Shown piece by piece: positions 1,439-20,839 of a DNA stretch of 21,891 nt. Source of the stretch: a virus. The translations under genes were made by a program, and so were the position numbers. Location: IMG/VR virus record IMGVR_UViG_3300021375_000187, positions 1-21,891 of that record; one strand, 5' to 3'. Within the stretch, counting starts at the first letter, position 1. Every line of letters starts with the position of its first letter. Under the pieces are notes generated by a model. That model saw only the letters and a program-made list of their open reading frames with translations, had not been told where the DNA came from and searched no databases.

Positions 1439-1446
1439 TATAAATA
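1439..1446 (+). promoter_or_regulatory. T4-type late promoter box upstream of gp18
   Basis: Exact TATAAATA, the -10 element recognised by the gp55 late sigma factor in T4-like phages. It lies 66 bp before the gp18 start in non-coding DNA. No -35 is expected for this class. Confidence 0.85.
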
Positions 1447-3766: not shown

Positions 3767-3774
3767 TATAAATA
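3767..3774 (+). promoter_or_regulatory. T4-type late promoter box upstream of the portal gene
   Basis: Exact TATAAATA four bases after the gp19 stop and 52 bp before the portal ATG. The hairpin at 3784-3803 would lie at the very 5' end of a transcript started here. Confidence 0.85.
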
Positions 3775-5316: not shown

Positions 5317-5324
5317 TATAAATA
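5317..5324 (+). promoter_or_regulatory. T4-type late promoter box for the prohead operon (67-21-22-23)
   Basis: Exact TATAAATA beginning 5 bp after the portal stop and 28 bp before the ATG at 5345. No further exact box lies between here and gp23, so this is the best candidate promoter for gp67, gp21, gp22 and gp23. Confidence 0.85.
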
Positions 5325-5344: not shown

Positions 5345-5515
5345 ATGAGTAGTATAGAATCATTAATTGATAATTTAAAAGGTAACGATAATGTTAAAGC
5401 TAGTGATAACTTTAATAGCATTATGGCTGATAAATTAAAAGATGCACTCGATGCAAAAAAAATCGACTTAGCATCAACAATGACCGATCGAGCTTCTAAA
5501 GCTGAAGAGTCATAA
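5345..5515 (+). CDS. gp67: Small prohead core protein, gp67-like
   Basis: A 56-aa reading frame with ATG at 5345, a ribosome site (AAGAGGAA, just upstream), and a stop 10 bp before gp21. The protein starts MSSIESLIDNLKGNDNVKAS and contains FNSIMADKLKDALDAKKIDLA, a helical pattern like the start of T4 gp67 (an N-terminal helix, then a segment with F, M, K and a hydrophobic I..A motif). T4 gp67 is about 80 aa with a long acidic tail; that tail is absent here. The position between portal and protease is exactly that of gene 67 in T4, where the product is part of the scaffolding core and is cut by gp21. Identification rests on position, size and a weak sequence pattern. Confidence 0.75.
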   Translation: MSSIESLIDNLKGNDNVKASDNFNSIMADKLKDALDAKKIDLASTMTDRASKAEES

Positions 5516-8783: not shown

Positions 8784-8791
8784 TATAAATA
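8784..8791 (+). promoter_or_regulatory. T4-type late promoter box upstream of the gp3-position gene
   Basis: Exact TATAAATA, 25 bp after the terminator T-run and 18 bp before the ATG at 8810, so transcription is terminated and restarted between gp23 and the next gene. Confidence 0.85.
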
Positions 8792-8809: not shown

Positions 8810-9274
8810 ATGGCTACACTAACTTCAAATAAAAACTATTTAAGTCCTGTTGGATTTAAATTTACTATTGACAATCAATTGTACCCTAATTTAGAATACT
8901 TTTGTACTGCAGTATCTTTACCATCAATTAGTATTGCTGAAGCACCAATGCCTTTCAGAGGAGCTAATGTAGGGTTTACTGGAGACAGAATTACATTCGA
9001 TGATTTAACTGTTAAGTTTAATATTACTGAAGATATGGATAACTATAAGGAAACTTTTGATTGGATTCATAATATAGTTAATGTTGGAGAGCAATTTAAA
9101 TCTGATGCCATTTTAAGTATATTAACCTCACACAATAACGTAAGTAAAACTATTAGGTTCTCAGATGTTTTTCCTATTAGTTTAAGTGGTGTTGAATTTA
9201 CAACAGGTGCTACTGAAATTGAATACTTACAAGCAGACGTAACTTTTAAATATACCTCGTTTGAATTTATATAA
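8810..9274 (+). CDS. Second tail-tube-family protein (gp3 position)
   Basis: A 154-aa protein that follows the same pattern as gp19 (3236-3763). FCTAVSLPSISIAEAPMPFRG lines up with FLCKAVAIPSSVIAPIELNFRG, GFTGDRITFDDLTVKF with the AGDRTFEPVTLTV strand, and FDWIHNI with FERWMNGI. It therefore very likely shares the gp19/gp54 beta-barrel tube fold. In marine T4-like phages the gene between gp23 and uvsY is normally annotated gp3 (tail completion/tube terminator), so a tube cap is the likeliest role; a baseplate tube initiator is an alternative. It is driven by its own late box, consistent with a structural protein. Tube-fold membership is seen in the sequence; the exact role is inferred from position. 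Confidence 0.8.
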   Translation: MATLTSNKNYLSPVGFKFTIDNQLYPNLEYFCTAVSLPSISIAEAPMPFRGANVGFTGDRITFDDLTVKFNITEDMDNYKETFDWIHNIVNVGEQFKSDAILSILTSHNNVSKTIRFSDVFPISLSGVEFTTGATEIEYLQADVTFKYTSFEFI

Positions 9275-9758: not shown

Positions 9759-11270
9759 ATGGACATAGTGACAGTTAAGAAACTTAACGAAACCTTTATA
9801 CAGATACTAACTGATCCTGGTATCGAGCAAGAGTTAACAGAACACTTCTGTTTTTACGTTCCAGGGTATAAATTCATGCCAGCGTATAAAAATAGGATGT
9901 GGGACGGTAAAATACGCTTGTACGATCTTAGGCGTAAGACGTTGTATGGTGGATTGTTCCAATACCTCAATGAATTTTGTGAAGTTAGGGACTACACCCT
10001 GAAGATAGAGGAAGATGAGTACTATTCAAGGCCTGATATTGAACAAATTATTGATATTGAAGGGTTTATGAGTGAATTACGGCCTAGCGTGAACGGTAAG
10101 GGTATTATCCCCCATGACTATCAACTTACGGCACTCTCGCTCTTGCTTTCTAAAACTAAAAGCCTTCTACTATCACCAACGGCTTCTGGAAAGAGTTTGA
10201 TTATATATTTAGCTGTTAGATATTACTTAGAGACGTATGATAACAAAGTCCTTTTAGTAGTACCAACGACGTCACTTGTTGAACAGATGTATTCTGACTT
10301 TAATGACTATTCTCAACTTGAGGATTGGAACGTAGAAGATAACTGCCATAGAATATACTCAGGTAAGGAAAAATATAATATAAAACCTAGGGTCATTATT
10401 ACCACATGGCAATCAATATATAAGATGCACCATGAATGGTTTGAACAATACGGTATGGTTATAGGAGATGAGGCACATTCATTTAAAGCTAAGTCATTAA
10501 CGTCAATATTAGAAAAATGTACGGAAGCTAAATACAGAGTAGGTACGACAGGAACTCTTGATGGTACATTAACTCATCAGTTAGTTTTAGAAGGTTTGTT
10601 TGGGCCTGTACATAAAGTTACAACAACTAAAGAGTTAATGGATAAAAATACATTAGCACAATTAGAGATTCAGGTATTGCTCTTAAAGTATGCTGACGAG
10701 TATTGTAAGCTTGTGAAGAAAATGAAATACCACGATGAGTTAGATTTTATTGTAAAGTACGAACCACGGAATAACTTTATTAGTAATTTAGCTTTAGACC
10801 AAGATGGAAACACACTTATACTATTTCAATTTGTAGAGAAGCATGGTAAACCATTGCACTCGCTTTTACAGGATAAGATAAGTAAACTACCTCGTTCCGA
10901 GGAAAGAAAATTATTTTATGTCTCAGGAGAAACCGATGTCGATACTAGGGAGAAGATTAGATCAATCACAGAGCAACAAGATAACGCAATTATTGTTGCT
11001 TCCATGGGTACTTTTTCTACTGGGATTAATATTAAGCGTCTTCATAATATCGTATTTGCTTCACCAAGTAAGTCCCAAATTAGGGTTTTACAAAGCATAG
11101 GAAGAGGGTTGCGGAAGAGTGCAGATGGTATAAATACTAAAGTGTACGATATTGCAGATGACCTACATTGGAAGAACAAGAAGAATTACACATTAGAGCA
11201 CGCAGGTGTACGAATTAGCATATATAGTAAAGAGAAGTTTAATTATAAAATATTTGAGATAAAAATTTAA
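9759..11270 (+). CDS. uvsW: UvsW superfamily 2 DNA/RNA helicase
   Basis: UvsW is an SF2 helicase that rewinds and branch-migrates recombination intermediates, restarts stalled forks and unwinds origin R-loops late in infection. At 503 aa it matches T4 UvsW. Motifs in order are the N-terminal substrate-binding part (GYKFMPAYKNRMWDGKIRLYD), Walker A SPTASGKS (139-146), TTWQSIYK, the DEAH box GDEAHSF (D237-H240), motif III GTTGTLDG, FQFVEKHGKPL, and motif VI QSIGRGLRK (445-453, with both Arg present). It starts directly after the uvsY stop and its own TAA shares one base with the next ATG (TAATG), so three genes are read as a coupled set. Confidence 0.96.
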   Translation: MDIVTVKKLNETFIQILTDPGIEQELTEHFCFYVPGYKFMPAYKNRMWDGKIRLYDLRRKTLYGGLFQYLNEFCEVRDYTLKIEEDEYYSRPDIEQIIDIEGFMSELRPSVNGKGIIPHDYQLTALSLLLSKTKSLLLSPTASGKSLIIYLAVRYYLETYDNKVLLVVPTTSLVEQMYSDFNDYSQLEDWNVEDNCHRIYSGKEKYNIKPRVIITTWQSIYKMHHEWFEQYGMVIGDEAHSFKAKSLTSILEKCTEAKYRVGTTGTLDGTLTHQLVLEGLFGPVHKVTTTKELMDKNTLAQLEIQVLLLKYADEYCKLVKKMKYHDELDFIVKYEPRNNFISNLALDQDGNTLILFQFVEKHGKPLHSLLQDKISKLPRSEERKLFYVSGETDVDTREKIRSITEQQDNAIIVASMGTFSTGINIKRLHNIVFASPSKSQIRVLQSIGRGLRKSADGINTKVYDIADDLHWKNKKNYTLEHAGVRISIYSKEKFNYKIFEIKI

Positions 11271-11668
11271 TGGACATATCGGTAAGACAATTTAAATTAT
11301 ACAGTGGCGAAGACGTTATTGCTTTGGTCAACAAGGTTGATGGTGAAAATTATATTGTCGAGAGACCGTTTAAACTTATTCAAAACTTAGTTGGTCAATA
11401 CCAATTAACTCCTTGGTTCCAATTTTCAGACCAAACCCTATTTAAAATACTACGATCAAGAATTATTCATTCAGCCGAAATAAGTGCTGAAATAAGAGAG
11501 GCTTACATCAGTATAGCTTCACAGAAAAGAACTTTAGAGACGCCTGTCGGCGATTCGGACTCTGAAGGTCTAGAGGAATATGTCAGAATGTTAAGAGACA
11601 TCGATCCTACTAGTGATATGGAGGAACCATCAGTTGATGATGATACAAAGGAACGAACAATACATTAG
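11270..11668 (+). CDS. Small Sm-like beta-barrel protein, function unknown
   Basis: A 132-aa protein starting on the last base of the uvsW stop. The first 85 residues read like a small Sm/SH3-type barrel found in marine T4-like phages: VRQFKLYSGEDVIALV, then YIVERPFKLIQN, LTPWFQF and TLFKILRSRIIHSAEI, a pattern of short strands with a GE turn. The last 45 residues are acidic and low in complexity (DSDSEGLEEYVRM, then DPTSDMEEPSVDDD). The coupled position after uvsY and uvsW suggests a role with nucleic acid or recombination, but no function can be claimed. A minus-strand promoter at 11702-11730 points into its 3' end. The fold is a tentative recognition; the gene itself is secure from length and coupling. 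Confidence 0.7.
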   Translation: MDISVRQFKLYSGEDVIALVNKVDGENYIVERPFKLIQNLVGQYQLTPWFQFSDQTLFKILRSRIIHSAEISAEIREAYISIASQKRTLETPVGDSDSEGLEEYVRMLRDIDPTSDMEEPSVDDDTKERTIH

Positions 11669-11701
11669 CTTTATATTACCCTCCCTCGGAACCACTCTAT
11701 T

Positions 11702-11730
11702 ATTATACCACGTTTTCTGTAATTTGTACA
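11702..11730 (-). promoter_or_regulatory. Minus-strand promoter of the TGTACA/TGGTATAAT family
   Basis: Read on the minus strand it is TGTACA (11730-11725), 17 bp, TATAAT (11707-11702), with TGG just before the -10. This is exactly the layout of the four + strand copies, and its upstream TGCAGAAA..CCTGTACA is shared with the copy at 15442. Initiation is expected near 11695, running leftwards into the end of the gene at 11270-11668. No convincing minus-strand gene lies downstream, so the product would be an antisense or small RNA. Confidence 0.7.
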
Positions 11731-11758
11731 GGACTTTCTGCAATAAAGGGCAATTAAA

Positions 11759-11962
11759 ATGATATATAAACCTGATCAAAATGAGATGATGTTTTGTGAA
11801 TACAGAATACATCGAAAAGATAAAGCATTAGTACTTGATAAAGAGCTTAATGTTCAAAAGTTTTTTAACTTTAATGATGGGGACACCCTACGCGTTAGCG
11901 TTAATAAAACAGATGAGGGATTCATGCAAACAACATTCACAAAACTATGTACAAATGAGTGA
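11759..11962 (+). CDS. Hypothetical protein, 67 aa
   Basis: A 67-aa frame, MIYKPDQNEMMFCEYRIHR at its start, with no recognised family. It has mixed charge, no signal peptide or membrane segment, and a DGDTLRVSVNK segment that looks like beta strands. A weak purine site (AAAGGG, about 11745-11750) precedes the ATG. The gene sits between the Sm-like gene and gp55, and the -35 box of the gp55 promoter lies inside its last codons. The minus-strand promoter at 11702-11730 starts just upstream and points away, so the two may diverge. No clear + strand promoter was found for it. Confidence 0.6.
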   Translation: MIYKPDQNEMMFCEYRIHRKDKALVLDKELNVQKFFNFNDGDTLRVSVNKTDEGFMQTTFTKLCTNE

Positions 11963-11976
11963 ATTTATGGTATAAT
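11948..11976 (+). promoter_or_regulatory. Early/middle-type promoter for gp55-gp47-gp46
   Basis: TGTACA at 11948-11953, a 17-bp spacer ending in TGG, and TATAAT at 11971-11976. It is one of five matching sites in the window. The extended -10 (TGGTATAAT) is strong; TGTACA is a poor match to the sigma70 -35 TTGACA, so an activator may bind it. The gp55 ATG is 35 bp downstream. Confidence 0.88.
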
Positions 11977-12011
11977 AGTACCTATACAACATTAATAATG
12001 GAGATTTAACT

Positions 12012-12578
12012 ATGGCAGATCCAAAGCAAAAGCCACACTATATTAATAACAAAGAATTTTCACTCGCTGTAGTTGAGTATGTTACTAATAAAAATAAGTT
12101 GGAAGAAGAAGGTAAAGAAACCCCTAAGGTTACTAACTATATTGCCTCTTGCTTCTTAAAAATATCAGAAGGTTTATCCCACAGACCAAACTTTGTAAGA
12201 TACACATACAGAGAAGAAATGGTTATGGATGCAGTAGAAAATTGTTTAAAGGCTATTTCTAATTACAATATTGAAACAGCAACAAGAACTGGAAAGCCAA
12301 ATGCGTTTTCTTACTTTACTCAAATTTGTTACTTTGCGTTTATTCGTAGAATTACAAAAGAGAAAAAGCAACAGGATATTAAATTTAGGTTTATTGAAAG
12401 AATGGGTATCGAAGATTTTGCTCAAATGGGAATGGATGATGCAGGTGCACAACAAACCATGGAGTATGTCGATACACTAAGACAACGAATTGCTAAGGTT
12501 AAAACTTCTGACGAAAAGATTAAGAAGTTTGCTAAGGCAGAAAAAGATTTAGAAAAACTAGAATTATTTATGGTATAA
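12012..12578 (+). CDS. gp55: Late-transcription sigma factor gp55
   Basis: gp55 replaces host sigma on RNA polymerase and recognises the TATAAATA late promoters, working with gp33 and the gp45 clamp. At 188 aa it matches T4 gp55 (185). The N-terminal [15 protein letters not shown] matches the T4 YVNNKELLQAI segment. [39 protein letters not shown] corresponds to T4 [55 protein letters not shown] is the region 2-like core helix. It is the first gene after the promoter at 11948-11976 and is followed by gp47 after a one-base gap. Exact late boxes elsewhere in the window (1439, 3767, 5317, 8784, 20114) are its expected targets. Confidence 0.95.
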   Translation: [188 protein letters not shown]

Positions 12579-12579
12579 T

Positions 12580-13641
12580 ATGAAAGTAGCTATTTTAAAC
12601 GATACACATTGTGGTGTAAGAAATTCATCAGATATATTTTTAAACTATCAAAGAAGATTTTACGAGGAAGTATTCTTTCCTTACTTAAAAGAACATGATA
12701 TTAAACAAATACTTCACCTAGGCGATTACTACGAACACCGTAAATTCGTTAACTTTAAAGCTCTTAACCAAAACCGTAGAGACTTCTTAGAACCAATGCG
12801 AGATGCTGGTATTACTATGGATATTATACCTGGTAATCATGATGTATATTTTAAAAATACTAATGAGCTTTGTTCTCTAAAAGAATTGCTAGGTTATTTT
12901 ACATCTAATGTCAATATCATTATGAAACCTAAAGTATTAGATTATGCTGGTTGCGGTGTTGCTGCAATTCCATGGATTAACAATTCTAATTATGCTGAAT
13001 ATACAAAATTCCTTAAAAACTGTAAAGCTTCTATCGTAGGAGCACATCTTGAGTTAAAAGGTTTTGATATGATGGCAGGTATATCAAATCCTCACGGTAT
13101 GGAATCTGATATATTCCAAAGATTTGAGTTAGTGTTGTCAGGACATTTCCATACGAAATCATCGAGAGGACCAATCCATTATCTTGGTTCACAATTTGAG
13201 TTTACTTGGGCAGATGTTGATGATCCAAAATATTTCCACATATTAGATACAGAAACACGAGAGATTACACCAGTGCGTAATCCTATTACAATGTTTAAAA
13301 AGTTTGTTTATGACGATGAAAAACATGATTATTCTGATATTGATATGGAACAGTTTAAAGAAAAATTTGTTAAGATTATAGTATTAAATAAAAACAATCT
13401 ATACATGTTTGATAAATTTATCGATAGATTGCAATCTACTGAAACATACGAATTAAAAATAGCAGAAAACTTTGAAGAATTCTTAGGAGATAGCGTTGAG
13501 GACGATAAAGTTTCCCTTGAAGATACTACTGTTTTACTAGATTCATATGTTGAAGCTGTCGATACAGAATTAGATAAAGATCATTTAAAAATTGAATTGA
13601 GAAAGCTTTATACTGAAGCTCAGAACCTAGAGGTCGTATGA
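12580..13641 (+). CDS. gp47: Recombination nuclease subunit gp47 (Mre11/SbcD-like)
   Basis: Metal-dependent nuclease that, with gp46, resects DNA ends for recombination-dependent replication and degrades host DNA. All phosphoesterase motifs are present in the 353 residues: NDTHCG (D8, H10), HLGDYYEHR (D49), PGNHD (N86, H87, D88), GAHLE (H156) and LSGHFHT (H189, H191). Length is close to T4 gp47 (339). It begins one base after the gp55 stop and overlaps gp46 by four bases (ATGA at 13638-13641), so the nuclease and ATPase subunits are translationally coupled. Confidence 0.96.
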   Translation: MKVAILNDTHCGVRNSSDIFLNYQRRFYEEVFFPYLKEHDIKQILHLGDYYEHRKFVNFKALNQNRRDFLEPMRDAGITMDIIPGNHDVYFKNTNELCSLKELLGYFTSNVNIIMKPKVLDYAGCGVAAIPWINNSNYAEYTKFLKNCKASIVGAHLELKGFDMMAGISNPHGMESDIFQRFELVLSGHFHTKSSRGPIHYLGSQFEFTWADVDDPKYFHILDTETREITPVRNPITMFKKFVYDDEKHDYSDIDMEQFKEKFVKIIVLNKNNLYMFDKFIDRLQSTETYELKIAENFEEFLGDSVEDDKVSLEDTTVLLDSYVEAVDTELDKDHLKIELRKLYTEAQNLEVV

Positions 13642-15353
13642 TAAATTTTAAGTATGTAAAGTGGAAGAACTTTTTGTCTACTGGAAACGAATTTACAAAA
13701 ATACAACTAGATAAAACACCATCTACTCTTATAGTAGGATCAAATGGAGCAGGTAAATCTACATTACTAGATGCGTTATCATATTCTCTATTTGGTAAGG
13801 CACATAGAGATATTAAGAAAGACCAATTGGTTAATTCTATTAATAAAAAGGGTACTGAAGTAGAAGTTGAATTTGAAATTGGTGGAGTTGATTTTAAAGT
13901 CAGAAGAACTATTAAACCTACTAAGTTTGAGATATTTCAAAATGGAAAAATAATCAACCAAGCAGCTAATGCCAGAGATTATCAAAAGTTTTTAGAACAA
14001 AACATACTTAAACTTAATCATAAATCGTTTCACCAGGTAGTAGTACTAGGTAGCAGTTCGTTTATTCCTTTTATGCAATTACCACCATGGTCGCGTAGAG
14101 CAGTCATTGAAGATTTATTAGACATTAACATTTTTAGTAAGATGAATGGTCTATTAAAGGAAAGGAATTCTAAAATTAAAGATGAACTAATAGATTTAGA
14201 CCATAACTTAGAATTAGTAAAATCTAAAATACAAAGCCAAACTAAATATATTAAAGATCTTCAAGGTATTAATCAAGATATGATTGATGCTAAGTATGCT
14301 ACAATGAAAGAACATAAAACAGAAATCAAAGGATATATCGATAAGTCTGCAGAGCTTAGTGAAAATTTATCTACAAATCTAGAAGAAATTAATAGATCAT
14401 ATGCAGTTACTGATTCTGATATAAGACAACTTCAAAGAAAGGAACACGAACTAACCGATAAAATAAAAGGTATGGTTAAAGAGGCTAGATTTTATGAAGA
14501 CAACGATCATTGTCCTACATGCGATCATGACCTAGAGGATAGTTTTAAAGAAGCTAAACTTACTCAGATTAAAGAGGAAGCGAATAAGATTCAAAACGAA
14601 ATGTCTAAGGTTGTAAAACAAGTCAACTTTTTAGAAAAAGAAGCAACCTTAGCCAAAAAGACAATAGACCATTTACTGAAAAAACAAAATCAAATAACTA
14701 CAAATAACGAAGCTGTAGGTTTACTACAAAAAGAAATCGATAAAATACAAAAAGATATTAGAAGCCTTAATGGTCAATCAGGTGATATAACTACCGCAAA
14801 GACTGACCTATCAGACCAAAGAGAAAAGAAAGATACTATGACAGAAAAGAAATTGTCATATGTAGAAGAAAGAACATACAACGAAGTTATAGGTGAAATG
14901 CTTAAAGATACTGGAATTAAAACCAAAGTTATTAAACAGTATTTGCCTGTAATGAATAGATTTATAAATCAGTATTTACAAGTATTGGATTTCTTTGTAG
15001 CTTTTCATTTAGACGAAGCATTTAACGAAACCATTAGGAGTCGTCATAGGGATGCATTTAACTATTCATCATTCTCAGAAGGTGAAAAGCAAAGAATCGA
15101 TTTAGCATTATTGTTCACATGGCGAATGATTGCTAAAATGAAAAATTCAGCTGCCACTAACTTACTAGTTTTAGATGAGACATTTGACTCATCACTAGAT
15201 CTTGATGGTATTGATAACCTCACTAAAATCCTAAATACACTAGAGGAAGGAACCAATGTGTTTATTATATCACATAAAGGCGATGTTCTAGAGAATAAAT
15301 TTAGGTCTAAAATAGAGTTCTATAAAGACAGAAACTTTTCTAAAATAAAGTAA
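13638..15353 (+). CDS. gp46: Recombination nuclease ATPase gp46 (Rad50/SbcC-like)
   Basis: SMC-family ATPase partner of gp47. In the 571 residues the order is Walker A GSNGAGKST (34-42), a first coiled-coil arm, a zinc hook CPTC (C292-C295), the return arm, the ABC signature FSEGEKQR (479-486) and Walker B LLVLDETFD (D513, E514). A Q-loop-like QVVVLGSSSFIPFMQL follows the first lobe. Length matches T4 gp46 (560). It overlaps the end of gp47 by four bases. A strong hairpin begins right after the stop and ends this three-gene block. Confidence 0.96.
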   Translation: MINFKYVKWKNFLSTGNEFTKIQLDKTPSTLIVGSNGAGKSTLLDALSYSLFGKAHRDIKKDQLVNSINKKGTEVEVEFEIGGVDFKVRRTIKPTKFEIFQNGKIINQAANARDYQKFLEQNILKLNHKSFHQVVVLGSSSFIPFMQLPPWSRRAVIEDLLDINIFSKMNGLLKERNSKIKDELIDLDHNLELVKSKIQSQTKYIKDLQGINQDMIDAKYATMKEHKTEIKGYIDKSAELSENLSTNLEEINRSYAVTDSDIRQLQRKEHELTDKIKGMVKEARFYEDNDHCPTCDHDLEDSFKEAKLTQIKEEANKIQNEMSKVVKQVNFLEKEATLAKKTIDHLLKKQNQITTNNEAVGLLQKEIDKIQKDIRSLNGQSGDITTAKTDLSDQREKKDTMTEKKLSYVEERTYNEVIGEMLKDTGIKTKVIKQYLPVMNRFINQYLQVLDFFVAFHLDEAFNETIRSRHRDAFNYSSFSEGEKQRIDLALLFTWRMIAKMKNSAATNLLVLDETFDSSLDLDGIDNLTKILNTLEEGTNVFIISHKGDVLENKFRSKIEFYKDRNFSKIK

Positions 15354-15392
15354 TCTACATAAAAGTGCATAAAGGTTACATTTTTATGTAGA
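15354..15392 (+). other. Large hairpin after gp46
   Basis: TCTACATAAAAGTG (15354-15367) pairs with CATTTTTATGTAGA (15379-15392): 14 bp with one G-T pair, loop of 11. It begins on the base after the gp46 stop. The run after it is ACAAAAG, not T-rich, so it is not a standard intrinsic terminator on +. It may protect the 3' end of the 55-47-46 mRNA. Confidence 0.6.
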
Positions 15393-15405
15393 CAAAAGTG
15401 TAAAA

Positions 15406-15447
15406 TAGGCTAATTATTTTGCAAATAAATGCAGAAAACCCTGTACA
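15406..15447 (+). repeat. Upstream promoter repeat, copy 1
   Basis: A 42-bp segment that recurs at 17896-17937 with 40 of 42 bases identical. It contains TAATTATTTTGCAAATAAATG and ends in the TGTACA box. The AT-rich half could act as an UP element or activator site. Confidence 0.85.
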
Positions 15448-15470
15448 ATCCACCATCAGCCTGGTATAAT
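15442..15470 (+). promoter_or_regulatory. Early/middle-type promoter for the 74-aa/VWA operon
   Basis: TGTACA (15442-15447), 17-bp spacer ending TGG, TATAAT (15465-15470), then AGTTATATAAATT, which is repeated after the promoter at 17932. The first ATG is 29 bp downstream. Confidence 0.88.
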
Positions 15471-15498
15471 AGTTATATAAATTAAGGAGATAAGGATT

Positions 15499-15723
15499 AT
15501 GAAACAAGGTTTAATTTTACACCACATCGCTACAGGGATCATTCAAGAGGTTCCTTTAAACGGCAAAGAGATGCAATTGGCTATGGATAAAGGCCCTACT
15601 ATAAATGATAGCTGGGACTTAATGGTAGCTTCAGTGGCCTCTAGGTCAGACATTACAATCAACGACGGCAACTGGGATTTAGAAAAAATCGTGGTCGACG
15701 GCGTTTCAAGGGTAGCACATTAA
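15499..15723 (+). CDS. Hypothetical protein, 74 aa
   Basis: No family recognised. The 74 residues, beginning MKQGLILHHIATGIIQEV, look like a small alpha/beta protein with no membrane segment or metal motif; two tryptophans lie in NDSWDLMV and DGNWDLEK, which might be an internal repeat (xxWDL). It has a good ribosome site (AAGGAG, about 15484-15489). Its stop shares one base with the ATG of the 721-aa VWA protein (TAATG), so it is made from the same mRNA and probably coupled to it. A role as a small partner or inhibitor of the VWA/AAA+ machine is only suggested by position. Confidence 0.75.
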   Translation: MKQGLILHHIATGIIQEVPLNGKEMQLAMDKGPTINDSWDLMVASVASRSDITINDGNWDLEKIVVDGVSRVAH

Positions 15724-17888
15724 TGAATAATAGTTTAGCAAAACTTCTAGCAACAGAAAATATCACCGTTCAAGTTGGTAATTATAATACTGCTTGGTTT
15801 GATATTAAATCCAGAGTACTAGGTCTTCCAGATTGGAAAGACATGACAAAGGACGTTGAGGATCTTCTTATAGGTCACGAAGTAGGCCATGCATTATTTA
15901 CTCCATACGAAGGCTGGCACGATAGCCCAGAAAAATTAGAAGGATGTCCTAGGTCATACATTAATGTAGTTGAAGACGCTAGAATTGAGAAAAACATTAA
16001 ATCAAAATATCCTGGATTGGTTGGACCAATGGCAAGAGGATATACTTCATTAGTAGCTAAGGAATTCTTTGGTGATCTTACTGATATTGATTGGGATAAT
16101 GTAAAACTCATTGATAAAATTAATCTTAAAGCTAAGATTGGTACATTATTAGATGTCCCAATGAATCCAGAAGAATCAGCATTATATAACGCTACAATGG
16201 TTACTGAATCATTTCAAGAAGTTTTAGATGTTGTTAGAGATATTTTAGCTTATACTAAAGAAAACCAAGAAGAACTAATTCAAAAACCAGAGACGCTTCC
16301 AGATTTTGATGAAAGCGATACTGAAGAAAATAACGATCCTACTACTCAAGGTCATGATGATTTTGAGCAAACACTAAGTAAAGAACAAGAGGCTACTGAA
16401 GAGGAACCAAGAGACGGCGAGGAATCTGACGATTCTGAAGAACCAGGACAAGCGGAGAAAGCAGTAGCTTCGCCTTTACCAGAGCATAGTGATGAAGATG
16501 TATCTATTACAGATGATATCTTTAGAGCAAAGGAAAAGGAGTTAATACCTGAGTCATCAAATACGTTTTATGCTAATGATGTTAAGGACGTTACACCATA
16601 TGTTATTCCATTTAAAGATTTAATGTCTAGAAGAAAAGAGGTATTAGAAAGCTTTAATCACGAATATGAAGATGGAACTGTTAACAAAAAACAAGTTCTT
16701 ACAATGAATATGGAAGTAGAATTCAAAAAGTACTTAAGTAAAGTTAAGAAAGCAGTTCAGCCAGCAGTAAAAGAATTTGAGCAAAAGAAAGCTGCGCATC
16801 AATGGCAGTATGCTACTACAGCAAAAACTGGTAGAATTGATGTTAACAAATTACACTCATACAAAATATCAGAAGACATTTTTTCACAAACGACTAACCT
16901 AGCCAATTCTAAAAATCATGGAATGTTTATGTTAATCGATTATTCTGGATCAATGGCTGGTGTTTTAAGTAATGTACTAGAGCAGTTAATCCATAGCATT
17001 ATATTTTGCAAAACAGTTAATATACCATTTGACGTATATGCATTTACAACTGGTGGCAATCATGATTATACTTCTTATAGAGATGGTGATTTTCAGATGG
17101 ATAATCTATCAATGCCACAGCTTATTCATTCAGATCTTAAAAAGAATGATTTTGAATTAGCTTTAAAATATCTTTATGCTAGAATGGAATGTGCTAGAGG
17201 ACCTCATGATTATTCAATATATGCTAGATGCGAAGAATGGGGATCAACACCTTTAAACCACGCACTAGTTTGTTCACATAAGTTAATTAAGAAGTTTAAA
17301 GCAATAAAAAATCTAGAGAAAGTTAACCTTATGTTAATCACTGATGGCGATACAAACAGATTAAGCATTATTGAAGATAGATCTCTTAGCGACAAGAAGC
17401 TTCCTACCACGAGCTCATACTATGGGTACGATGCAGAAATTAAAACTACCATTGATGGCAAAAAGTTAACACTAGCTGGAAGAGGTGTTAATGGTACTAA
17501 AAGTCTTTTACAAAATCTTAAGAAAAGATACGGAGTTAATGTTATAGGATTTTACATTGCTGATTCTAGAGGCGATCTAAATAGTGCTATATTCTCAAGT
17601 TATAGAGATCAAAACAAAGACGCTAATGATTGGGATACCAGTTTTGATAAGCATAAGAAAATAAAGTTAAAGGAAAGAAACAAAAACAAATGTATCGAGT
17701 ACAAAAACAGTAAAGGTTACGATAATCTTTACATTGTGTTAGACAAAGAGTTTAGTACAGACGAGGACGAATTCGAAGCAACTTCTGATCAAACTAAAAG
17801 CCAAATAACAAGAGCATTTAAAAAGTATAGCTCAAGTAAAAAGGTTAACAAGAGTTTGATGAGCAAATTTGGCCAGGCAGTAGCATAG
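15723..17888 (+). CDS. Zincin-VWA protein, CobT-like
   Basis: A 721-aa protein with two recognisable parts. The N-terminal domain has a zinc protease motif HEVGH (52-56), followed by NVVEDARIE where E84 could be the third ligand. A very acidic linker (about 195-260) precedes a C-terminal VWA domain with a complete MIDAS: DYSGS (D406, S408, S410), T509 in GSTPL and D541 in LITDGDT. The segment GRIDVNKLHSYKISEDIF just before the VWA resembles CobT. A MoxR/CobS-type AAA+ ATPase is the next gene, a standard pairing in which ATPase and VWA protein form a remodelling machine. A cobalt chelatase role is unlikely here since no CobN-like large subunit is seen; chaperone or regulated proteolysis is inference. 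Confidence 0.85.
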   Translation: MNNSLAKLLATENITVQVGNYNTAWFDIKSRVLGLPDWKDMTKDVEDLLIGHEVGHALFTPYEGWHDSPEKLEGCPRSYINVVEDARIEKNIKSKYPGLVGPMARGYTSLVAKEFFGDLTDIDWDNVKLIDKINLKAKIGTLLDVPMNPEESALYNATMVTESFQEVLDVVRDILAYTKENQEELIQKPETLPDFDESDTEENNDPTTQGHDDFEQTLSKEQEATEEEPRDGEESDDSEEPGQAEKAVASPLPEHSDEDVSITDDIFRAKEKELIPESSNTFYANDVKDVTPYVIPFKDLMSRRKEVLESFNHEYEDGTVNKKQVLTMNMEVEFKKYLSKVKKAVQPAVKEFEQKKAAHQWQYATTAKTGRIDVNKLHSYKISEDIFSQTTNLANSKNHGMFMLIDYSGSMAGVLSNVLEQLIHSIIFCKTVNIPFDVYAFTTGGNHDYTSYRDGDFQMDNLSMPQLIHSDLKKNDFELALKYLYARMECARGPHDYSIYARCEEWGSTPLNHALVCSHKLIKKFKAIKNLEKVNLMLITDGDTNRLSIIEDRSLSDKKLPTTSSYYGYDAEIKTTIDGKKLTLAGRGVNGTKSLLQNLKKRYGVNVIGFYIADSRGDLNSAIFSSYRDQNKDANDWDTSFDKHKKIKLKERNKNKCIEYKNSKGYDNLYIVLDKEFSTDEDEFEATSDQTKSQITRAFKKYSSSKKVNKSLMSKFGQAVA

Positions 17889-17895
17889 TGATACT

Positions 17896-17937
17896 TAGGC
17901 TAATTATTTTGCAAATAAATGCAAATAACCCTGTACA
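17896..17937 (+). repeat. Upstream promoter repeat, copy 2
   Basis: Differs from copy 1 (15406-15447) at two of 42 positions and likewise ends in TGTACA. It begins 8 bp after the stop of the VWA gene. Confidence 0.85.
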
Positions 17938-17960
17938 CTATGCATTAACTATGGTATAAT
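17932..17960 (+). promoter_or_regulatory. Early/middle-type promoter for the AAA+ gene
   Basis: TGTACA (17932-17937), 17 bp ending TGG, TATAAT (17955-17960). Initiation near 17967 would put the TTG at 17972 almost at the RNA end, which favours the ATG at 17990 as the start of the AAA+ gene. Confidence 0.88.
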
Positions 17961-17989
17961 AGTTATATAAATTGATAAGGAACTATATT

Positions 17990-19117
17990 ATGAACATAAA
18001 CACAAATACAATACTAAAAAGCTTAATGGAAACATATCCAGATAGCACTGTCTTTAAAAAAGCAGAAATCGTATCCATAGCAAATTCGCTAGGATTTAAA
18101 AAGAGTGATTATTCACCTCTAACTTCAACTGATAACAGGACCGATGTCAGAGGTCAATATGATCTTTCAGCTGTTATTATTCCAATGAGGGAATCTAATA
18201 CAATGGCTAAAACATCACCAACAGTAGTTGGAATGCAATCAATAGTAAATGAAGAGAAAACATTCGCTTCAGTTGATCCTACATTCGTACCATGGGGTGC
18301 ATATTCAGACGTCGTTAAAGTCGTTAAATCTGAAATGTTTTACCCTATCTATGTGTCAGGTCTAAGCGGTAATGGTAAAACCTTTATGGTCGAACAGGCA
18401 TGTGCTAAAGAAGGTAGAGAGTTTATTAGAGTGCAAATTAATCCAGAGACAGATGAAGACGATTTAATTGGCGGATTCAGATTAATCAATGGCGAAACAG
18501 TTTTCTCCAAAGGTCCAGTTCTAAAAGCTATGGAAAACGGAGCAATTCTTCTCCTAGATGAAATTGATAGAGCTACTAATAAAATCATGTGTCTTCAAGG
18601 AATCCTAGAAGGTAAGCCAGTCCTAGTTAAGAAAACTGGAGAGGTTGTTAAACCTACTAATGGATTCAATGTAATAGCAACTGCTAACACAAAGGGTAAA
18701 GGGTCAGACGATGGAAGATTCACAGCAGCTTCTATTATCGATGATGCTTTCCTAGAAAGATTCACAATATCAATTGATCAAGCATTTCCATCGGTATCAG
18801 TTGAAAAGAAAATTGTTAATAACCACATGAAAAAATTTGGAGAAGTCGACAAAGACTTTGCTGATAACTTAGTGGGATGGGCAGACATCATCAGAAAAAC
18901 TTTCTACGATGATGGAGTCGATGAAGTTATTTCAACAAGAAGGTTGTGTCATATTGCACAAACATTCTCAATCTTTAAAGATAAGATGAAATCAATTGAT
19001 CTATGTATCTCAAGGTTCGACGATGACACAAAAGCTGCATTCCTAGATCTTTACAGTAAGGTCGATGCAGGTATAGAAACAATTACTGACGAGGATTATA
19101 ATGGCGAAACAGCTTAA
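17990..19117 (+). CDS. cobS: MoxR/CobS-family AAA+ ATPase
   Basis: A 375-aa AAA+ protein of the MoxR/CobS type, widely named cobS in cyanophages. Walker A is GLSGNGKT (124-131), Walker B ILLLDEID (D190, E191), sensor 1 lies in IATANTKG, and ERFTI carries the arginine-finger region. The first 110 residues (KKAEIVSIANSLGFKKSDY) look like a small helical DNA- or protein-binding domain, as in phage CobS. ATG 17990 is chosen over an in-frame TTG at 17972 because AAGGA at 17976-17980 is correctly spaced from it. It has its own promoter although its likely partner, the VWA gene, lies just upstream. The cobalt chelatase role of bacterial CobS is known; its relevance in the phage is unproven. Confidence 0.9.
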   Translation: MNINTNTILKSLMETYPDSTVFKKAEIVSIANSLGFKKSDYSPLTSTDNRTDVRGQYDLSAVIIPMRESNTMAKTSPTVVGMQSIVNEEKTFASVDPTFVPWGAYSDVVKVVKSEMFYPIYVSGLSGNGKTFMVEQACAKEGREFIRVQINPETDEDDLIGGFRLINGETVFSKGPVLKAMENGAILLLDEIDRATNKIMCLQGILEGKPVLVKKTGEVVKPTNGFNVIATANTKGKGSDDGRFTAASIIDDAFLERFTISIDQAFPSVSVEKKIVNNHMKKFGEVDKDFADNLVGWADIIRKTFYDDGVDEVISTRRLCHIAQTFSIFKDKMKSIDLCISRFDDDTKAAFLDLYSKVDAGIETITDEDYNGETA

Positions 19118-19388
19118 CTACAAATTTAACGAAGGAGCTCTAATCAAAGAGCTTCAAGCGTATATCGATTCTACGTACGATGCACATTATGGACAAGGGG
19201 GATTACAATCCTCTGAGGTTATAGTGGATCGTGGACATGGTCTAGGATTCTTCCTGGGTAATGTCGATAAATACAATGCAAGGTACGGGAAAAAGGGTGA
19301 TGTGAAAGACCACCGAAAGGATCTTATGAAAGTATTGCATTATGCATTACTTGCTCTCTATGAGCATGATAGGATTAATTCAAACTAA
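19101..19388 (+). CDS. DUF3310-type small protein
   Basis: A 95-aa protein with the pattern of phage DUF3310 proteins: FFLGNVDKYNARYGKKG followed by RKDLMKVLHYALLALYEHD, i.e. a G-N-x-x-K-Y helix, a K-rich turn and a second helix. Some relatives are labelled nucleotide kinase, but no P-loop is present here, so that label is not supported. The start overlaps the end of the AAA+ gene by 17 bp in another frame, which implies coupled translation from the promoter at 17932-17960. Function unknown; a link to nucleotide metabolism is only by association in other phages. Confidence 0.75.
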   Translation: MAKQLNYKFNEGALIKELQAYIDSTYDAHYGQGGLQSSEVIVDRGHGLGFFLGNVDKYNARYGKKGDVKDHRKDLMKVLHYALLALYEHDRINSN

Positions 19389-19391
19389 CTA

Positions 19392-19420
19392 TGTACATTA
19401 TACTAAAAGTATGGTATAAT
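19392..19420 (+). promoter_or_regulatory. Early/middle-type promoter for the gp45 clamp
   Basis: TGTACA (19392-19397), 17-bp spacer ending TGG, TATAAT (19415-19420), in the 58-bp gap before gp45. The spacer contains ATACT-AAA-AGTAT, a perfect 5-bp inverted repeat (19400-19412). Confidence 0.88.
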
Positions 19421-19446
19421 ATACTATTAATTAAAAAGGTAATATT

Positions 19447-20118
19447 ATGAATATAACAAACGATACTCTCAAGGTATTGAAAAACTTTGCTACCATTAAT
19501 CCTAACATTGTGATTAAACCTGGTGGTCAACTAAAAACAATCTCTGAAGCTAAAAACATTATGGCTGTTGCTGATGGCACTGATGATTTTCCTACAGAGT
19601 TTGGAATCTATGATCTTAATGAGTTCTTATCTGTTTCAAATTTGGTACAAGATCCAAACTTTGATTTTCAAGATAAAAACGTTAAGATTACTTCAGGTGG
19701 TAACACTGTAACATATTTCTTTTCAGAGCCAGAGATCTTAACATCTCCTTCTAAAGAAATTACAATGCCAGACACCGAAGTTGGAATTTCCATTACACAG
19801 GAAGTTTTATCACAGGTTCGTAAAGCAGCTGCTGTACTTGGACATACTGAAATGTCTATTAAAGGTAACGGCGGTAAAGTAACACTATCAGTAGTTGATA
19901 GTTCAGATGCCACTGCTAACTCATTTGATATTGAACTTAACGACAATAACGATTGTACTGAAGAGTTTAATTTCATCGTAAATATTAATAATCTAAAATT
20001 GATCGAAGGTGATTACTTTGTGAATATCAGTTCTAAACTAATTTCACAGTGGACATGTTCATCAATGGCAGTTAAATATTTTATCGCTTTAGAGAAAGCG
20101 TCAACATTTGGCGTATAA
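19447..20118 (+). CDS. gp45: DNA polymerase sliding clamp gp45
   Basis: Trimeric processivity clamp for the phage DNA polymerase and the mobile activator of late transcription through gp55 and gp33. The 223 residues match T4 gp45 (228) in length and pattern: LKNFATINPNIVIKPGGQLKT at the N-terminus (T4 LLKNFATINSGIMLKSGQ), FGIYDLNEFLSVSNLV (T4 VAIYDLNGFLGILSLV), FNFIVNINNLKLIEGDYFV (T4 FNFIINMANMKMQPGNYKL), and a C-terminal VKYFIALEKASTF. Own promoter 27 bp upstream of the ATG; a late box overlaps its stop codon. The clamp-loader genes follow after two small genes. Confidence 0.96.
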   Translation: MNITNDTLKVLKNFATINPNIVIKPGGQLKTISEAKNIMAVADGTDDFPTEFGIYDLNEFLSVSNLVQDPNFDFQDKNVKITSGGNTVTYFFSEPEILTSPSKEITMPDTEVGISITQEVLSQVRKAAAVLGHTEMSIKGNGGKVTLSVVDSSDATANSFDIELNDNNDCTEEFNFIVNINNLKLIEGDYFVNISSKLISQWTCSSMAVKYFIALEKASTFGV

Positions 20119-20121
20119 ATA
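20114..20121 (+). promoter_or_regulatory. T4-type late promoter box overlapping the gp45 stop
   Basis: Exact TATAAATA whose bases 20116-20118 are the gp45 stop codon. It would give a late transcript with a leader of about 110 nt for the 91-aa gene at 20238. Confidence 0.75.
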
Positions 20122-20148
20122 TAATGGTATATTATATACGCAATAGGA

Positions 20149-20201
20149 ATTCTCATAATAATTATGAGGATATAGTGTAAGATGCGGATAACCGGTCTTA
20201 C
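20149..20201 (+). other. Two tandem hairpins in the leader of the 91-aa gene
   Basis: The first is a near-perfect palindrome, CTCATAAT-A-ATTATGAG (20152-20168), extended by a few outer pairs. The second pairs GTAAGAT and CGG with CCG and GTCTTAC (20177-20201) around the loop ATAA, with one bulged G. Neither is followed by a T-run. They lie downstream of the late box, within the untranslated leader. Confidence 0.6.
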
Positions 20202-20237
20202 TAATTATAGTCTAACTTTGATCAAAGGAGAAACAAA

Positions 20238-20513
20238 ATGACTAATCAAGTAGAAACTCAAGCTGGTGAGGAACAAGAACCAGTACAACTAAGTCTTCAG
20301 GACATCTCAACTTTTGTGCAGATTATCGATATCTGTTCTAAAAGAGGTGGTTTTGAAGGTCAAGAAATGGAAGCAATCGGCGGTCTTAGAAATAGAACCG
20401 TTCAGTTTCTAAACCAAGCATCAGAAGCTCAAGGTGAAAAAGCTCCAGAAGGTATGGTACCATCTGAAGGCGATCCCGATGTAACTGTTGATACTGGCGA
20501 AGCAGACGCTTAG
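20238..20513 (+). CDS. Hypothetical late protein, 91 aa
   Basis: An acidic 91-aa protein. Its middle (VQLSLQDISTFVQIIDICSKRGGFEGQEM) is likely helical, followed by EAIGGLRNRTVQFLNQASEAQ and a flexible acidic tail rich in G, E, P and D. Similar proteins occur as conserved hypotheticals in marine T4-like phages, as far as I recognise. A strong ribosome site (AAAGGAG) precedes the ATG, a late box with a structured leader lies upstream, and a terminator follows, so it is a self-contained late unit placed between clamp and clamp loader. Late expression suggests a virion or assembly role (inference). Confidence 0.8.
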   Translation: MTNQVETQAGEEQEPVQLSLQDISTFVQIIDICSKRGGFEGQEMEAIGGLRNRTVQFLNQASEAQGEKAPEGMVPSEGDPDVTVDTGEADA

Positions 20514-20581: not shown

Positions 20582-20839
20582 ATGGATCGCAATGAAACAT
20601 CACGCTTAATCGAAGCACTAAAACGAGGTTCTGTTACAGTAACCTTTCAAAAAATTGACTCAGACGAAATTAGAGTCATGCCATGTACTCTCAACCCCCC
20701 AGTTCTAAAAGCTAATGGAGTTCAATCTATTATCGAAAACATCGATCCTAACACGCATCATATTGCTGCTTGGTCTCTTGACAAAGACGCATGGAGATCG
20801 TTTAGACTAGATACTGTTCTTGGTTGGGAGGTACTATAA
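20582..20839 (+). CDS. DUF2693 (WYL_2-type) Sm-like small protein
   Basis: An 85-aa protein matching the phage DUF2693 pattern: an N-terminal helix (RLIEALKRG), a strand SVTVTFQKIDSDE, and the hallmark IRVMPCTL, then a C-terminal AAWSLDKDAWRSFRLDTVLGWEVL in place of the usual basic strand. The family is predicted to form an SH3/Sm-like barrel; its function is unknown to me. Its stop overlaps the gp44 start by one base, tying it to the clamp-loader genes, and its coding end holds the GGGAGGT that serves as the gp44 ribosome site. The conserved location next to the clamp loader hints at a replication-associated role. Confidence 0.78.
   Translation: MDRNETSRLIEALKRGSVTVTFQKIDSDEIRVMPCTLNPPVLKANGVQSIIENIDPNTHHIAAWSLDKDAWRSFRLDTVLGWEVL

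Follow-up and report, generated by a model that had tools for sequence, protein, structure and literature searches.

The 21.9-kb IMG/VR record IMGVR_UViG_3300021375_000187 (21,891 nucleotides, nt), referred to here in its entirety as the window, comes from an uncultured marine T4-like phage, and contains a family of promoter-like sites of the form TGTACA-N14-TGGTATAAT. In these, the hexamer TGTACA at -35 is separated by 17 base pairs (bp) from an extended -10 (TGG and then TATAAT). We infer, with a probability of about 0.77, that the sites of this phage and its close relatives (the 'clade') are early promoters read by unmodified host sigma-70 RNA polymerase. The TGTACA family probably does not represent a new activator system, but a switch of the ordinary kind, read by the host and newly spelled. 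Its mark is G at -34 in a T4-type early -35 hexamer; variation at -33 and -36 is already known (PMC1524935).

The scheme we propose is simple. Right after infection, unmodified host sigma-70 polymerase would bind promoters built from an A-rich upstream element, the -35 hexamer, 17 bp, the extended -10 (TGG) and TATAAT. Genes for replication, recombination and nucleotide metabolism, including those for gp55 and gp45, would be transcribed early, and these two proteins would in turn direct transcription from the late, TATAAATA promoters. In the clade, the -35 of almost all early promoters would have moved from the T4 spelling, TTTACA, to TGTACA, host polymerase presumably tolerating either base, T or G, at -34 if the extended -10 and the upstream element are strong.

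The promoter family in the window

The motif occurs exactly five times in the window, four times on the plus strand and once on the minus strand, at the places where the first-pass annotation had put it, and not once in 100 dinucleotide shuffles. Allowing up to three mismatches gives ten matches, namely the five exact copies and five with three mismatches, with none intermediate. G001 and G002, mentioned below, are longer contigs (136.8 and 126.4 kb, respectively) from close relatives of the window phage. The copies, with the genes or open reading frames (ORFs) that follow them, are:

11702..11730, minus strand: promoter copy, exact match, divergent from gp55; the same 29 bases occur in G001 and G002
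11948..11976, plus strand: promoter copy, exact match; next gene gp55 (late sigma), then gp47 and gp46
15442..15470, plus strand: promoter copy, exact match; next a 74-amino-acid (aa) ORF, then the VWA 'peptidase' (phrog_459)
17932..17960, plus strand: promoter copy, exact match; next a CobS-like AAA+ ORF, then a 95-aa ORF (phrog_480)
19392..19420, plus strand: promoter copy, exact match; next the gp45 sliding clamp

The exact 17-bp spacing first described holds for all five, and the long relatives each add one member with an 18-bp spacer. From the -10 of the copy at 11948 to the gp55 start codon is 36 nt, a distance identical in G001 and G002.

A genome-wide family

G001 and G002 contain 16 exact copies each, whereas 60 shuffles of these long genomes gave 0.10 copies on average and never more than 1. 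Viewed in the orientation of the window, each genome has 14 forward and two reverse copies, and a called ORF starts 7-43 nt downstream of 27 of the 28 forward ones (13 of 14 in G001, 14 of 14 in G002; ORFs throughout are longest-ORF calls). The first genes after the copies include those for gp55, the CobS-like ORF, gp45, DNA polymerase, NrdA, ribosomal protein S21 and several unknowns. Genome-wide, the family is enriched before prereplicative genes.

Spacing is as regular here as in the window. The distance from the start of TGTACA to the start of TATAAT is 23 bp 16 times per genome, and each of the other offsets listed within 40 bp occurs at most twice. Besides its member with an 18-bp spacer, each genome has one with TTTACA, and the spelling totals are 17 TGTAC and 2 TTTAC in each. 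When 18 non-coding TGnTATAAT sites were considered, TGTACA lay at 17 bp in 14 (G001) and 15 (G002), and so the family is the phage's main extended -10 class. A T4-late-type TATAAATA set is also present (19 non-coding sites in G001, 16 in G002), alongside gp55, gp45, a gp33-like coactivator and a DsbA-like protein.

The copies might be a dispersed repeat, spread by duplication, instead of maintained promoters. A long upstream stretch common to the copies at 15442 and 17932 and to one more in G001 is what this would predict, as are two G001 copies with identical spacers, but the idea is hardly tenable. Fifteen of the 16 spacers in G001 are distinct and differ on average at 8.2 of 14 positions, which contradicts duplication; the copies are positioned just before ORFs; and the form recurs in phages as distant as G012 (identity 54% for gp23 and 37% for gp45). 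All 16 spacers of G002 are distinct, and the union of both genomes has 27 distinct spacers, many of them near-copies between the two.

The upstream stretch, GGCTAATTATTTTGCAAATAAATGCA, precedes three promoters (window 15402-15441 and 17892-17931; G001 reverse complement 123834-123873) and exceeds the length that the promoter elements require. The second reverse copy is identical in both long genomes and is followed by GGGGGGCAGAGGTAGTA (G001 reverse complement 39474-39502, minus strand; G002 104403-104431, minus strand).

Comparison with T4 early, middle and late promoters

The early class of T4 consists of UP/-35/TGn/-10 promoters (PMC2988021), in which the -35 region is GTTTAC at -36 to -31 (PMC1524935). 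Of 58 non-coding TGnTAyNAT sites in T4, 22 have TTTACA (14) or TTTACT (8) at 17 bp. When spacers of 12-22 bp were scanned, the spacer was 17 bp in 23 of 25 T4 TTTAC[AT] sites; among TGTACA sites, G001 and G002 each have this spacing in 17 of 18. The TGnTATAAT form of the -10 is present in the five window copies and in 16 per long genome. Clade and T4 early promoters thus have in common the 17-bp spacer, the extended -10 and an A-rich upstream element in the same register. They differ by one base at -34 (T in the TTTACA of T4, G in the TGTACA of the clade), by the conserved G at -36, which the clade usually lacks, and at the -10, which is often TACTAT in T4 and is TATAAT in the clade. The strict GTTTAC of the T4 early class is absent, and by their layout the predicted clade promoters are a variant of that class.

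The upstream element was compared by means of a weight model of the 22 bp before the -35, built from 23 T4 promoters alone. Applied to 27 clade promoters, a set in which G001 and G002 contribute many near-copies of each other, the model scores a mean of +1.45 at register 0, versus -3.3 to -22 at 24 other registers; at AT-rich random sites the mean is -10.8 and the 95th percentile -2.1. When the genomes are scored apart and the base before the hexamer is omitted, register 0 scores 2.8 in G001 and 3.0 in G002, and the next best registers -1.4 and -1.2. In the window the elements and their scores are:

11926..11947, plus strand: A-rich upstream element, T4-early upstream model score 9.9
15420..15441, plus strand: A-rich upstream element, score 4.5
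17910..17931, plus strand: A-rich upstream element, score 3.8
19370..19391, plus strand: A-rich upstream element, score 3.9
11731..11752, minus strand: A-rich upstream element of the minus-strand copy, score 4.1

The first-pass annotation was right that TGTACA is not the sigma-70 consensus, TTGACA, and had offered the alternative that these are early promoters for host sigma-70 in which one -35 variant is preferred. The T4-early spacing and upstream register support this alternative. In one list of E. coli RpoD promoters (PMC3946193), three entries have TGTACA assigned as their -35.

The annotation's preferred parallel was with T4 middle promoters, activated by MotA-like and AsiA-like proteins, and here the box position and spacer proved to match T4 early promoters instead. 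In T4, a MotA box centred at -30 replaces the -35, and both MotA and AsiA are required (PMC2988021). Middle promoters have a sigma-70 -10, often extended, as do the clade sites, but the clade hexamer stands at -35 with a 17-bp spacer. The genes for gp45, gp46, gp47 and gp55 are prereplicative in T4, and their presence among the targets, like the extended -10, would suit a middle class. The proteins are not seen. The MotA DNA-binding domain (PF09158) matched T4 alone (E 7e-71) of eight records, with none in the seven others; AsiA (PF09010) matched T4 alone (E 2.3e-43) of five, the others being G001, G002, Melnitz and HTVC008M, an earlier run having given a sub-threshold match in Mosig; and MotA_activ (PF09114) matched none of six records in a search without a T4 control. 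G001 and G002 may be incomplete genomes. Nor did scans for exact TATAAT with a 17-bp spacer reveal a second sigma-70-like class that could serve as the early set. We reject the middle-promoter reading, very improbable at best, because the hexamer is at -35 and neither MotA nor AsiA is recognised.

Overlapping early and late promoters have been discussed as a middle mode for RB49 and S-PM2 (PMC2984593). Late-like sequence lies within 60 nt downstream of three of 16 copies in G001 and two of 16 in G002, against a background of about 0.03; this is above chance and possible for a few genes, but is rejected as a general middle mode. T4 late promoters themselves (TATAAATA, no -35) are distinct from the TGTACA sites, which do have a -35 and exist beside a separate TATAAATA set. 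For Melnitz, early and late promoters are reported and middle ones were not identifiable, perhaps, its authors suggest, because they are too divergent for detection (PMC9004378). In the clade, one clear promoter class before many prereplicative genes makes a simple early/late programme testable from sequence.

Spelling of the -35 hexamer among relatives

The -35 of T4-type early promoters varies by lineage: RB49, RB43 and Aeh1 prefer G at -33, and the variation described in the parts of that account we covered is at -33 and -36, not G at -34 (PMC1524935). The marine Kyanoviridae isolates Melnitz (TTGACA) and HTVC008M (mostly TTGACT) have the same spacing and extended -10 as the clade, and differ from it by their TTGAC spelling. 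With up to one mismatch allowed, the TGTACA form has no copies in seven isolate or single-cell records. Among the papers listed by literature searches that covered few subscription papers, we recognised none that describes TGTACA as a phage early -35; in the covered part of a paper on Pf16, the lone 'TGTAC' string is not a -35.

Two sets of loci were used. One was selected for holding an exact copy of the motif; the other, less biased, comprises 122 loci found through homology to gp23 and not through the motif (near-copies kept, and some contigs also in the motif-chosen set). Thirty-two of the 122 hold T..AC[AT]-N14-TGnTATAAT, with 44 sites in total, and these are spelled TTGAC (20), TTTAC (18) or TGTAC (6), and with none of the other possible middle dinucleotides out of 16. 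On a gp23 tree of 45 rows, TGTAC requires seven changes, and well-supported branches force at least five, interleaved with TTTAC. Label clustering on the tree is weak for TGTAC and TTTAC (59 and 41 of 500 shuffles, respectively, are as low) and clear for TTGAC (0 of 500). The TGTAC spelling likely arose repeatedly; we say likely because many rows of the tree are based on one site.

Sixteen loci have two or more sites. Six of these, including the near-copies G001 and G002, mix TGTAC with TTTAC; four have TTTAC only, three TTGAC only, and one, the window, TGTAC only; HTVC008M mixes TGTAC with TTGAC (1 to 10), and G012 has all three. Mixture of TTTAC and TGTAC in one genome fits a single reader that tolerates T or G at -34. 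The statement in the first-pass annotation that TGTACA is strictly kept while spacers vary holds, then, within the clade, and fails for related phages, where TGTACA is mixed with TTTACA.

In IMG/VR as a whole, the exact motif occurs in at least 119 stretches, with more than one copy in 16 of the 80 listed; a control pattern with ACATGT occurs in 49, always singly. A 132-kb phage contig of 51% GC (G022, IMGVR_UViG_3300027795_000039) has 11 T[TG]TACA-N17 extended -10 sites and gives no tblastn match to 16 window proteins, and so the T[TG]TACA form may reach beyond T4-like phages. Among GTDB assemblies, T4-like gp23 contigs occur in assemblies of many unrelated bacterial phyla (42 loci in all; G028 is one example), and binning is therefore no evidence of host. 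One Alteromonadales metagenome-assembled genome (MAG) has nine TGTACA-form sites; the ORFs on the examined parts of five contigs match T4-like phage contigs, and this looks like binned phage DNA. The three spellings, TTGAC, TTTAC and TGTAC, provide a marker with which to ask whether spelling follows the host or a phage factor.

Host reading or a phage-directed reader

Several points weigh against reading by unaided host polymerase. The -35 of the predicted promoters is two positions off TTGACA and yet, oddly, is kept at nearly all promoters of the clade, a clade-wide spelling that host reading explains poorly and that a phage-directed change of reader would explain. Only two of 94 T..AC[AT]-N14-TGnTAyNAT sites in 18 isolate records are TGTAC (part of the 94 being chance, since a backwards control gave 21 matches), and host reading of TGTACA thus finds no support in any cultured phage among these records. 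In the other TGTAC phages G007, G009, G012 and G023 the T4 upstream model gives a weak fit or none, and it has no peak in HTVC008M or Melnitz; this weak fit outside the clade counts against a shared origin of the upstream element in all. Finally, the clade's WYL_2 protein could be a regulator.

The alternative is a phage-encoded or phage-modified reader of TGTACA, either an unrecognised -35 activator or a protein that alters region 4 of sigma-70, with the whole promoter set switched together. It would account for the near-uniform spelling within each genome (e.g. G001 and G002) and for the agreement, described below, between the forward and divergent promoters of gp55. The palindromy of TGTACA and the many small G002 proteins without a Pfam name are also compatible with it. 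We think it unlikely, however: six of the 16 loci with two or more promoters mix TGTAC and TTTAC, and the position of the hexamer and the 17-bp spacer are those of the sigma region 4 contact. The phage activator of TGTACA that the first-pass annotation thought possible is similarly improbable, and nothing we found requires one.

A weakly supported candidate for such a reader, and the sole named one, is the WYL_2 protein encoded between gp45 and gp44 (window 20582-20839; E 6.8e-8, plus a weak WYL match). WYL_2 is present in G001, G002, G012, G023, G025, C48C1 and T4, in which it is encoded at the gene 31.1 position; Melnitz and HTVC008M, the two isolates with TTGAC, gave no match. In the locus set, 17 records have it: 13 of 111 TGTAC, 3 of 35 TTTAC, 0 of 24 TTGAC and one of the 92 without a class. 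This set is mostly fragments and is rich in TGTAC, and the pattern comes from few genomes. As a marker of spellings with T at -33, WYL_2 is suggestive but weak. The family is also widespread in enteric, Vibrio and Aeromonas phages (478 records), and such relatives as Aeh1 and RB49 prefer G at -33 (PMC1524935). It is a doubtful proposition that TGTACA is a third dialect of T4-like promoters, gained several times through a phage-directed change in polymerase specificity (e.g. by WYL_2) that would unite the forward and divergent spellings.

A Pfam scan of 90 of the 102 small forward proteins of G002 found late-transcription and replication parts and one WYL_2 protein; no further activator name appears among the matches listed (in the last batch, 25 of 35 families). 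Alt-type modification of polymerase as the cause of T at -33 was rejected, T4 Alt, ModA, ModB and Srd having matched T4 alone of 16 records (phmmer). YefM is associated with TGTACA, and a YefM/Phd regulator binding the hexamer was likewise rejected, PhdYefM having matched none of four genomes.

The divergent promoter before gp55

The minus-strand copy sits between a 132-aa ORF and gp55 and is directed away from gp55; transcripts started there would enter the 132-aa ORF from its 3' end, in antisense. We take this predicted divergent promoter to be real. Of 62 loci, 21 have a promoter of any of the three spellings on that strand no more than 420 nt from gp55; near-copies (G001, G002, L011, L047, L114, L080 and L310) and also L065 were excluded from the 62. 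The remaining 41, among them T4, Melnitz, HTVC008M and C48C1, have none. The subset of 45 loci not chosen by motif is, like the gp23-derived set, less biased, and here a divergent promoter is found in seven (five TTTAC, two TTGAC), where the overall density, 0.0208 per 420 nt of strand, would predict about 0.9. Where gp55 has both a forward and a divergent promoter, their spelling agrees in 10 of 11 loci. Divergent promoters, which overall use all three spellings, also occur in the distant T4-like phages L291, L304, L250, L324, L338, L277 and L260.

Directly behind the divergent promoter of the window lies the following segment:

11669..11701, minus strand: purine-rich intergenic segment

The roughly 30 nt that come next after the divergent promoter are purine-rich, and in about 14 of the 21 they are alike by eye. 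Of 362 distinct promoters, 30 have a G-rich leader behind them, whereas the rate at random sites, 3.7%, would give about 13; the excess is modest and takes in the gp55 sites that prompted the test. One of the 30, L424, was rejected as an example, as ARAGORN places its G-rich bases in or next to a tRNA-Met gene; it remains in the count. A profile built from 12 gp55 leaders finds, at E below 5, two sites on which it was not trained (E 2.6 and 4.9), both directly behind an early promoter and neither significant alone. Rfam gives no match at E 1 in window positions 11000-20500, inspection by eye saw no conserved short peptide behind the divergent promoter, and a strict exact-stem script called no terminator within 400 nt at 19 leader sites, not all of them before gp55.

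Late transcription is launched by gp55, and the divergent promoter may point to a small or antisense RNA at this gene; we met no description of such an RNA in the literature covered. G-rich leaders also stand directly behind early promoters of other genes, in Melnitz (MZ577096, 74238, plus strand), where the leader precedes a small gene and tRNA-Arg, and in G025 (53801, minus strand). In L423 (9584-10154, minus strand), a contig binned in an Alteromonadales MAG, a G-rich leader comes after the early promoter at 10154, and some 90 nt farther along there is a tmRNA gene (ARAGORN tmRNA*). In L364 (about 5204, minus strand), an early promoter just behind gp23 on the opposite strand is followed by a leader and then, within about 60 nt, by the hairpin GGACCGGC-TTTC-GCCGGTCC. 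Leader and hairpin form a possible short RNA, as judged by eye; the strict script called no terminator there.

Other features of the window

The window holds the structural genes gp17-gp23, and also encodes UvsW, gp55, gp47, gp46, the phrog_459 and phrog_249 proteins, gp45 and gp44. The genes that follow the promoters, and the late-promoter-like sites, are:

12012..12578, plus strand: gp55-like late sigma factor (phrog_234, E 1.8e-50)
12580..13641, plus strand: gp47-like nuclease subunit, SbcD-like (phrog_100, E 3.1e-91)
13638..15353, plus strand: gp46-like nuclease subunit (45% match to an HTVC008M coding sequence annotated 'recombination endonuclease subunit')
15723..17888, plus strand: phrog_459 'peptidase' (E 3.7e-166); 'VWA' is the label of the first-pass annotation only
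17990..19117, plus strand: CobS-like AAA+ protein (phrog_249, E 4.6e-111); queried from 17996, the ATG at 17990 being taken from the sequence
19447..20118, plus strand: gp45 sliding clamp (phrog_223, E 5.5e-73)
20582..20839, plus strand: WYL_2 protein, of the Pfam family of the T4 protein at the gene 31.1 place; possible regulator
1439..1446, plus strand: TATAAATA, late-promoter-like, before gp18
3767..3774, plus strand: TATAAATA, late-promoter-like, before gp20
5317..5324, plus strand: TATAAATA, late-promoter-like, before the ORF at 5345
8784..8791, plus strand: TATAAATA, late-promoter-like, before the 154-aa ORF at 8810

A protein with a CsgF (curli) domain is among the 37 proteins of one G002 alignment set; phage curli genes are a topic of the Melnitz paper as well (PMC9004378).

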